A stretch of 51,371 nt of DNA, from positions 1 through 51,371 of the forward strand of contig JAFQEO010000015.1 of assembly GCA_017399005.1 (NCBI GenBank), read 5' to 3'. The notes under the pieces were generated by a model. It worked only from the letters and a program-made list of their open reading frames with translations. It was not told where the DNA came from and did no database searches. Both the position numbers and the translations under genes were made by a program. The DNA is from Peptococcaceae bacterium (GTDB lineage: Bacteria > Bacillota > Peptococcia > Peptococcales > Peptococcaceae). Shown one piece after another: positions 10,531-51,371 of the stretch (the stretch's first letter is position 1; the number at the start of each line of letters is the position of its first letter).

Positions 10531-10781
10531 AAGAAAAACCCGTTCCTGTTTCAGTAACAGGGACGAGTTTAAAATCGTGGTACCACCCTGCTTCATTCTG
10601 CGAAAATACAGAATCTCAGCAGATTGTATAACGGCAATCAACCGGGCCGACGGCCATGCTCCTGGCTCATTTTCGCCGACGCTGACAGTCTGAACTCGCA
10701 GCAAATGTTCAGCTCTCTGGGCTGCAGCTTTTCGGGTACTCTACCATTCATCGCATTACAGGCATATTTTAAATGAATATA
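10531..10781 (-). promoter_or_regulatory. T-box riboswitch (methionine) in the metG leader
   Basis: Read on the minus strand, this leader contains the T-box core AAGCAGGGTGGTACCACGAT (plus positions 10574-10593). It is followed by a terminator hairpin (about 10538-10569) and a U run. Stem I has the AGAGAGCTG element and a specifier region GAAAATGAG, in which AUG (plus 10668-10670) matches the gene's amino acid. Uncharged tRNA-Met would stabilise the antiterminator and allow metG-tatD transcription. Confidence 0.93.
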
Positions 10782-38228: not shown

Positions 38229-39908
38229 ATGGGTTTTAAAAGTGACATTGAAATTGCACAGGAAACACAGATGACAGTAATCAACGAGATTGCTGACAAA
38301 CTGGAAATTAAAGATGAATATGTAGAAAACTACGGCAAATACAAAGCAAAAATTGACTATCGTATGCTGAAAGAATATCAGGATAAACCAAACGGTAAAC
38401 TGATTCTGGTAACAGCTATCAACCCTACCCCTGCTGGGGAAGGCAAAACCACCACTACAGTTGGTTTAGGGGATGCGTTATCCGCTATGGGCAAAAAAAC
38501 CGTTATCGCTCTGCGTGAACCATCCTTAGGGCCTGTATTTGGGGTAAAAGGCGGTGCTGCAGGCGGCGGTTATGCACAGGTTGTACCAATGGAAGATATC
38601 AACCTGCACTTCACAGGCGATATGCATGCAATTGGCGCGGCAAACAACCTGCTGGCAGCTATGATTGACAACCACATTCAGCAGGGTAATGTATTAGGCA
38701 TCGACCCTCGCAGAATCACATGGAAACGCTGCGTGGACATAAATGACCGTCAGCTGCGTTATATTGTAAGCGGTCTGCACGGCAAAGCAAATGGTATGCC
38801 TCGTGAAGACGGTTTTGACATCACAGTAGCATCTGAAATCATGGCAATTCTGTGCCTGTCCAGTGATATCGACGACTTAAAACAGAAACTGGCAAGCATC
38901 GTAATCGGTTACAGCTATCAGGATGAACCAATCACTGCTGGTCAGTTAAACGCACAGGGCGCTATGGCAGCTCTGCTGAAAGATGCTCTGAAACCAAACC
39001 TGGTTCAGACTCTGGAAAAAACACCTGCATTCATCCACGGCGGTCCGTTCGCAAATATTGCACACGGCTGCAACAGTATCATGGCTACCGGTATGGCTCT
39101 GAAACTGGGCGACTATGTAGTAACCGAAGCTGGTTTCGGTGCTGATCTGGGTGCAGAAAAATTCCTGGATATCAAATGCCGTAAAATGGGCATTCAGCCA
39201 GATGTAGTTGTTATCGTTGCAACTGTACGTGCGCTGAAATACAACGGCGGCGTTGCAAAAGCAGATTTGAACAATGAAAATCTGGAAGCTCTGGAAAAAG
39301 GGATTCCAAATTTACTGCGTCATATCGAAAACATTACTCAGAGCTTCGGTTTACCTGCAGTGGTTGCAATCAACCGCTTCCCAACCGATACCGAGGCAGA
39401 ACTGCAGCTGATTTACGATAAATGTAAAGAGCTGGGTGTTAACGTTGCTCTGTCTGAAGTCTGGGGCAAAGGCAGCGAAGGCGGTAAAGAACTGGCAGAA
39501 GAAGTTATCCGCTTGACTGATGCTGGTGCTGGCAAACTGCAGTTCACCTACGATGTAAACGAAAGCATTATGGATAAAATCAACGCTGTTGTGACCAAAA
39601 TTTATCACGGCGCTGGCGTAGATTACACCCCTGCTGCGAAAAAAGCAATCAAACAGCTGGAAGATCTGGGCTACGACAAACTGCCAGTCTGCATGGCAAA
39701 AACCCAGTACTCCTTCTCTGACAACCAGGCTCTGCTGGGTGCTCCGGAAGGGTTCCGCATCACCATCAGCAATGTAAAAGTATCTGCTGGTGCTGGTTTC
39801 ATCGTTGTTTACACCGGTGATATCATGACCATGCCAGGTCTGCCAAAAGTTCCATCTGCAGAAAAAATTGACGTGGACAACGACGGCAGAATCTCCGGCC
39901 TGTTCTAA
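38229..39908 (+). CDS. fhs: Formate-tetrahydrofolate ligase
   Basis: This enzyme makes 10-formyl-tetrahydrofolate from formate, ATP and THF. It feeds one-carbon units to purine synthesis, ThyX and, in some anaerobes, the acetyl-CoA pathway. The 559-aa protein has the ATP loop [19 protein letters not shown] and the family signatures [23 protein letters not shown] (split by function) and [14 protein letters not shown]. The length is standard. Highly uniform codon use, close to that of the symporter and oxidoreductase genes in this window, suggests abundant expression. It is monocistronic between sigF and a terminator. Confidence 0.97.
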
Positions 39909-39931: not shown

Positions 39932-39966
39932 ACTGCATCACGAATCCTCGTGGTGCAGTTTTTTTA
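39932..39966 (+). terminator. fhs terminator
   Basis: A 12-bp stem (ACTGCATCACGA with TCGTGGTGCAGT, one G-U) has a 4-nt loop and is followed by eight T residues. Confidence 0.92.
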
Positions 39967-39978
39967 TTTTTGTGATAG

Positions 39979-40142
39979 ACGCAGGAACAGGCAGTTTGCT
40001 CTCTCGGCTTTTCCTCAATATCTGGACAGCATCTTGATTTGTTTTCTTCGTTCAGACTTCGTCTGACTCATAAAAACAAATCGGCGCTGCTGTCCATCTG
40101 GTTTCGAAATGTGCCGGTTCGCAAATCTGGCTGTTCCTGCGT
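39979..40142. repeat. 164-bp intergenic palindromic (hairpin-forming) element
   Basis: The two ends are perfect complements (ACGCAGGAACAG at 39979-39990, CTGTTCCTGCGT at 40131-40142). Further inside, TGGACAGCA (40023-40031) pairs with TGCTGTCCA (40088-40096), GATTTGTTTT (40036-40045) with AAAACAAATC (40073-40082), and TCAGAC (40052-40057) with GTCTGA (40061-40066) at the tip. No coding frame is present. It could be a non-autonomous palindromic repeat (REP/MITE-like) or a structured RNA. Confidence 0.8.
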
Positions 40143-40246
40143 ATTGATGAATAAGAAAAACAGTACCAGAAAAATTTGTATTTCTGATTGTAATACAGCA
40201 GAATATTTGTTATAGTTGGAACAGCAAAAAAGAGGAGGAATTAATT

Positions 40247-40609
40247 ATGGAGGGTATGTTATCATCGGCTCAGTCACTGCTGATGCTGTTAGGTGTTCTG
40301 GTTATTCAGTATTTTCTGGTGAAACGTCCACAGAAATGGATGGCATTTATTTTACCGGCACTTTATTTCGGCTTATCTATTCGTGATGTGGTGCTGAGTG
40401 TACAAAATGGTGCTGTTATATTTGGCGGCAGTATTGGAACTGCGCTAATTACATTTTTTACATCTAATATTATCACGGCCATGCTGCTGATGGTCTGGTG
40501 GAAGAAAGACTTTGACAAAAGTATCATTGCTATTGCTGTATTTGCAGTATATATTCTGTCCAATGTGATACTGATGCTTCTCTTAATGCTTATTGGTGTG
40601 TTTGTATAG
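40247..40609 (+). CDS. Small integral membrane protein, 120 aa
   Basis: The protein has about four membrane segments (around residues 10-25, 33-50, 58-82 and 92-118) separated by short basic loops such as VKRPQKW and WKKDFDKS. No conserved domain is recognised. The start is supported by AGAGGAGGAATT. It is a single gene between the palindromic element and a terminator. A transporter accessory or stress-related membrane protein is possible, but nothing in the sequence shows it. Confidence 0.8.
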   Translation: MEGMLSSAQSLLMLLGVLVIQYFLVKRPQKWMAFILPALYFGLSIRDVVLSVQNGAVIFGGSIGTALITFFTSNIITAMLLMVWWKKDFDKSIIAIAVFAVYILSNVILMLLLMLIGVFV

Positions 40610-51028: not shown

Positions 51029-51110
51029 GGAGGGGTTCCCGAGTGGCCAAAGGGGACGGACTGTAAATCCGTTGGCTCCGCCTTCGAAGGTTCGAATCCT
51101 TCTCCCTCCA
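51029..51110 (+). tRNA. tRNA-Tyr (GTA)
   Basis: This is an 82-nt class II tRNA with acceptor GGAGGGG paired to TCCCTCC (one G-U), the anticodon GTA at 51063-51065, a long variable arm and a TTCGAAT T-loop. CCA is not encoded. Confidence 0.95.
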
Positions 51111-51120
51111 CTTTTTCTAT

Positions 51121-51196
51121 CGCGGGATGGAGCAGTTGGTAGCTCGTCGGGCTCATAACCCGAAGGCCGGAGGTTCGAGTCCTTCTCCCGCAACCA
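51121..51196 (+). tRNA. Initiator tRNA-fMet (CAT)
   Basis: The anticodon is CAT (51154-51156). Base 1 (C) faces an A at position 72, an unpaired end that marks initiator tRNAs. The anticodon stem has the three consecutive G-C pairs (GGG/CCC) needed for initiation. The 3' CCA is encoded. Confidence 0.95.
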
Positions 51197-51200
51197 ACTT

Positions 51201-51273
51201 GCTTGTATAGCTCAGTCGGTAGAGCGTTACCTTGGTAAGGTAAAGGTCACCAGTTCGATTCTGGTTACAAGCT
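51201..51273 (+). tRNA. tRNA-Thr (GGT)
   Basis: GCTTGTA pairs with TACAAGC in the acceptor stem. The anticodon loop TTGGTAA gives GGT at 51234-51236, and the T-loop is TTCGATT. CCA is not encoded. Confidence 0.95.
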
Positions 51274-51296
51274 TTTTTATAAAGTTTATATAATAT

Positions 51297-51371
51297 GGCG
51301 GCATAGCTCAGCTGGCTAGAGCATACGGTTCATACCCGTAGTGTCCGGGGTTCAAGTCCCTGTGCCGCCAC
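51297..51371 (+). tRNA. Elongator tRNA-Met (CAT), cut by the window end
   Basis: GGCGGCA pairs with TGCCGCC, and the anticodon CAT is at 51331-51333. Base 1 is paired, unlike the initiator. The body resembles elongator tRNA-Met more than tRNA-Ile2. The last base of the window is the C after the discriminator A. Confidence 0.9.

Follow-up and report, generated by a model that had tools for sequence, protein, structure and literature searches.

The imperfect palindrome at positions 39978..40143 (+ strand) of the window, by which we mean the whole analysed contig JAFQEO010000015.1 of a Peptococcaceae bacterium (51,371 nt), probably represents a new family of palindromic repeats, non-autonomous, non-coding and confined to one genus, which insert into the gaps between genes, are mobilised in trans, and include some old copies that are under constraint. 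We compared the window's own genome (G000) with seven other genomes of the same genus (G001-G007).

The boundaries of the core element come from folding and from a covariance model, which places the window copy on the + strand at 117.3 bits (E 9.7e-25). By folding, the 164 nt from 39979 to 40142 form one end-to-end hairpin of -74.4 kcal/mol on each strand, which none of 200 dinucleotide shuffles matched (z -9.67 for the + strand and -11.24 for the - strand). On the + strand, the 5' arm of the outermost stem, ACGCAGGAACAG (39979..39990), pairs with the 3' arm CTGTTCCTGCGT (40131..40142), and the sequence of this stem varies among copies with compensation. The 5' arm of the middle stem, TGGACAGCA (40023..40031), holds a conserved GGACA block and pairs with TGCTGTCCA (40088..40096), which holds a conserved GTCC block, as judged from conservation in the alignment. 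Inside lies a hairpin with a TTC tip (40036..40082; GATTTGTTTT...AGACTTCGTCT...AAAACAAATC), the tip differing in length and sequence among copies. The helices, asymmetric internal loops and TTC tip described in an earlier, sequence-only reading of this DNA are thus borne out, the tip being AGAC-TTC-GTCT. The same is true of the placement in a gap between a terminator and the next gene: the stop of fhs (formate-tetrahydrofolate ligase) is at 39908, its terminator (39932..39967, + strand; hairpin 39932-39959 plus a T-run) lies upstream, outside the element, as the context of the insertion and is the same in G003 and G004, and a 120-aa ORF starts at 40247. A weaker, AT-rich inverted repeat extends outward (39961-39997 with 40124-40160, 73% complementary). 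Based on this complementarity and on comparison of the empty site in G004 and analogous copies, the full extent may be 39961..40160 (+ strand), starting from the T-run of the terminator. Elsewhere in the window, a T-box leader (Rfam RF00230) occupies 10556-10760 on the - strand, and a 5S rRNA fragment (1-91) and a cluster of four tRNA genes (51029-51370), both on the + strand, lie at the ends; as the window comprises an entire contig, rRNA operons are probably where the assembly was interrupted.

BLASTN revealed a second clear copy plus fragments in the window's own genome and, within the genus, matches that included one of 91% in species G003, at the same locus, while a G004 copy used as query gave about 18 long matches in G004. 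The covariance model, built from an alignment of 26 copies, matched all eight genomes at E <= 0.01, with 6 to 132 matches each (G000 36, G001 7, G002 12, G003 13, G004 49, G005 33, G006 132 and G007 6); these counts include some places matched on both strands, and G000 has at least 18 distinct places. The richest genome thus holds on the order of a hundred copies. The search of own genome and relatives proposed in the sequence-only reading therefore returned dispersed copies, and a single-copy artefact is rejected in view of the many copies found by BLASTN and by the model. Outside the genus, five genomes of the same family gave no match, nor, at E <= 0.001, did these five together with eight more of the order (13 genomes, 12 genera in all). 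Because several of the genus genomes are drafts with a completeness of 68-82%, the absence of a copy or a transposase from them is weak evidence. The element is about 150-175 bp long in the family and has no evident coding capacity. Of 107 copies, 74 have their nearest relative in the same genome, indicating species-specific expansion. Carriage by phages or plasmids is rejected, as no match was found, with one query or pattern each, in viral contigs (IMG/VR, 18-base core pattern), plasmids (PLSDB, L029 copy as query) or phage records (window copy as query).

Some arrangements of the copies are recorded here as observations. Tandem triplets, with a spacing of about 190 bp, and head-to-head pairs occur in G006 (C46:644-1187, and on C41, C28, C38, C27 and C13) and in G005 (C147); the pairs resemble each other between loci, like composite BIMEs. 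Short forms that look as though they had lost their interior, and hold barely anything beyond the outer stem, are found at L046 (G003:C11) and L146:690-747 (G004:C87). Three loci of G004 (L143:3735-3965, L144 and L145) carry half elements, in which the 5' end of the element is followed by an unrelated terminator-like hairpin. Many element copies in several species have close by them a second dispersed repeat, which spans about 85-130 bp around CAAGGCGGCTTT...GTACGCAAGGCGAG: it is downstream of the element at L158 (G000:C34) and L029 (G004:C1), and is also seen at L172, L175, L189, L191, L196, L200 and L141.

Variation among copies affects the outer stem, the tip and some portions of the middle stems, whereas the internal loops and the short blocks CTTTCC-CTCA, GGACATTTCC-T, TGTTC-CTTT, CACRG, GTCC and AATTCGGAAGGCGCC are conserved. 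This reverses the sequence-only reading, which took the ends and tip to be conserved and the interior to be mismatched. The covariation analysis it had suggested was run on the 26-copy alignment with RNAalifold and gave 32 pairs, 19 of them with two-sided changes. Paired cells amounted to 94%, against 31-49% when partners were slid by one to three columns, a percentage biased towards the structure because the latter was derived from the same sequences; the excess of two-sided changes (97 against 9-17 with slid partners) is harder to explain in this way. Each copy scored far higher in the + reading than in the - reading, which means that the element has a polarity.

The site of the window copy is polymorphic in the genus. 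In G004, fhs is followed by the same terminator and next gene but not by the element, giving a syntenic empty site, while G003 carries a copy there (L161). The flanks of 13 other copies were also used to locate orthologous loci, and among 37 candidate loci, the window's site included, the model matched only L161; the other 36 gave no match. Alignments showed clean empty sites at several loci, the sharpest being that of a G000 copy on C36 (L005) against G003 (L229), where about 178 nt are inserted at the T-run of a terminator with no duplication; the other junctions are blurred by divergence. The target-site duplication that the sequence-only reading had proposed to look for was thus absent from this sharp junction, and overall the words shared by the two flanks did not exceed in length those of shuffled pairings (direct repeats -2.2 sd, inverted repeats +2.7 sd). 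Presence/absence polymorphism at syntenic sites and multiple dispersed non-coding copies of less than about 200 bp, the marks of a MITE-like palindromic repeat in the broad sense, are both observed. The dispersed copies, syntenic empty sites and species-specific expansions support the mobile palindromic repeat that had been suggested from the sequence.

Some old copies nevertheless appear to be under constraint, as orthologues have diverged less than neutral sites. Two or three species share a copy at each of at least six sites. The window copy is 88% identical to its G003 orthologue, whereas the 45-nt flanks reach 0.60 against 0.56-0.57 for shuffled ones, and fourfold sites of the neighbouring genes are 49% and 75% identical; a 130-codon ORF at this site with 100% identical fourfold sites was taken as an antisense artefact. 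Similarly, the elements of L158/L029, L157/L153/L031 and L004/L038 are 86-92% identical (length-normalised), against 45-65% at fourfold sites. L139/L216 (72%) and L172/L189 (64%) are less clear cases: for both, closer relatives exist at other places, so that they may be separate insertions. The conservation might in part reflect exchange between copies, and exchange or duplication is likely for L153/L154. The next best relative of the window copy is only 71% identical, so it has no close paralogue, and exchange does not explain its conservation. The changes between orthologous copies include compensated pairs, three of them at the window's site.

The mismatches within helices bear on whether pairing is kept in DNA or in RNA. 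They were counted only where Watson-Crick pairs flank both sides, all kinds being handled alike, and in 116 copies G.T (87) and A.C (90) were equally frequent, both in the first 76 copies (59:60) and in the later 40 (28:30). Control hairpins with a T-run tail (terminators) from the fetched sequences had 26 G.T and 9 A.C (Fisher p 0.009 against the copies, which are related, making the p-values rough). This equality makes a function in RNA of one strand unlikely, and pairing kept without G.U bias fits a DNA hairpin better. On the + strand, pyrimidine-pyrimidine mismatches outnumbered purine-purine ones (318 vs 105) because of the conserved loops. The DNA cruciform site among the earlier suggestions is thus a possibility, as pairing is kept without G.U bias; as for the structured non-coding RNA, its one-strand form is disfavoured by the 87:90 ratio and the mixed orientation relative to genes, and a role on both strands retains some probability.

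The gene context bears on such a role. Among 85 gaps with called neighbours, 46 were tandem, 33 convergent and 6 divergent. The excess of convergent over divergent gaps has a p of 1.4e-5, although it should be taken as indicative because ORFs were called mechanically and the two kinds of gap differ in length. In tandem gaps the element showed no preferred direction (19 with the genes, 27 against), and no motif shared by the flanks of 73 copies was seen by eye. The hairpin could be a REP-like element of transcript ends that stabilises or terminates the mRNAs on either side, its spread being incidental. Apart from the convergent excess, this is favoured by the long stable hairpin on both strands, by some copies that lie 5-30 nt from both stop codons (L174 and L197) and by the constraint on old copies, and a 1:1 ratio of G.U to A.C would be expected as well. 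However, when tandem copies were oriented by gene sense, the excess of G.U over A.C was not significant (52:40, p 0.25), the T-run after the hairpin is inconsistent in the family, the window already has a complete terminator upstream, and genes manage without the element at empty sites. We consider this explanation a possible but rather unlikely one. An intrinsic terminator as such is rejected, there being no T-run after the window copy and no consistent one in the family, as is an in-frame protein insertion like those in Rickettsia, since the copies are intergenic (two overlap long ORF calls).

A classical MITE, derived by deletion from a DDE-type insertion sequence and moving via terminal inverted repeats, would agree with the size, the copy number, the intergenic position and the absence of coding capacity; but the outermost bases are the least conserved and form no conserved terminal inverted repeats, target-site duplication was not above chance, and no parent insertion sequence with matching ends was seen beside or among the copies in the fetched neighbourhoods. 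Nor was a transposase gene recognised by eye among the ORFs of these neighbourhoods. This origin is unlikely.

REPs are palindromic, lie between convergent and unidirectional genes, and often occur as oppositely oriented pairs (PMC3733652, PMC3116915). The present element resembles REPs, REPINs and BIMEs in its palindrome, in the same distribution over gene gaps (PMC3733652) and in opposite-orientation pairs, and a REPIN moved by a RAYT/Y1 (HUH) transposase would account for hairpin DNA in gene gaps, for the head-to-head pairs and tandem groups in G006, and for the fixed polarity. However, REPs are 20-40 bp long and have unpaired GTAG or CGTC tags, while our element is several times that length and its alignment lacks such a tag. 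Moreover, the Y1_Tnp domain (RAYT, IS200; PF01797) was detected in G000 but not in any of G001-G007, which include the copy-rich G004 and G006 (incomplete drafts), leaving this reading very improbable. Within G000, IS200-like Y1 transposase genes lie near contig ends (C23:90-446 and C34:6-221). The weakest reading, a strand-specific structured small RNA or riboswitch family, has excellent covariation and conserved asymmetric internal loops in its favour, but the missing G.U excess, both orientations relative to genes, the want of a consistent gene partner, the turnover of copies between species, and Rfam, where nothing covering the element matched at gathering score or at E up to 1, make it hardly credible.

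Integron attC sites are imperfect hairpins with conserved mismatches, a variable tip and a fixed polarity. The element shares all these features, but differs in that the integron integrase IntI (TIGR02249) was over the cut-off in none of the eight genomes, no cassette arrays were seen, orientation is mixed, and the R-box consensus was unmatched by eye; attC is rejected on the missing integrase. The IS110 family, examined in G000, G004, G005 and G006, was over the cut-off only in G006, which does not track copy number, and is rejected as the mobiliser. The element thus lacks the features tested here as defining a REPIN, an attC site or a classical MITE.

Compared with other known families, the element is most readily likened by description to bcr1 of the Bacillus cereus group, a chromosomal imperfect hairpin of about 150-170 bp with tens to 130 copies (PMC6542083, PMC2267715), which it resembles in size, hairpin form and copy number and in being confined to a single group of Firmicutes. 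It is set apart, also by description, because a TTTAT motif accompanies bcr elements, for which a mechanism resembling site-specific recombination has been proposed (PMC6542083), whereas no duplication was detected here. YPAL/RU-2 of Yersinia (about 168 bp) is likewise palindromic and intergenic, with termini lacking a TA motif (PMC2229807). It belongs to the same size class and is also similar in shape, copy number and confinement to one clade, but is enterobacterial and has been reported with a target-site duplication (PMC2229807), of which none was seen here. We therefore file the family within the broad kind of non-autonomous bacterial palindromic repeats. Our literature search, of partial coverage, found no such family described for Clostridia.

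In the favoured reading, the copies insert into intergenic gaps that are mostly free of promoters, lying between convergent genes or downstream of stop codons and terminators. The palindrome may be extruded as a DNA hairpin and recognised in that form by an enzyme of the host or of an insertion sequence acting in trans, as suggested by the kept pairing, the missing G.U bias, the conserved loops and the variable ends. This enzyme would read the hairpin through the conserved internal loops, which would also set the polarity of the element. The least certain step is that old copies are probably kept for a host role at gene 3' ends, which might be protein binding or a transcript-end function on both strands. 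We put forward only tentatively, as a rather doubtful whole, the more specific proposal that a loop-recognising enzyme other than a Y1/RAYT transposase or an integron integrase propagates the hairpin without target-site duplication, and that old copies were co-opted at gene 3' ends under a constraint exceeding that on synonymous sites.

The mode of movement has not been established for most small bacterial palindromic repeats (PMC2229807). With its conserved loops, compensating stems and empty sites, and with no RAYT or integron integrase found in the copy-rich genomes, this family makes the question of the mobiliser testable. Meanwhile, young copies turn over while some shared old ones are strongly conserved, a contrast through which the co-option of such repeats for host functions can be put to the test.
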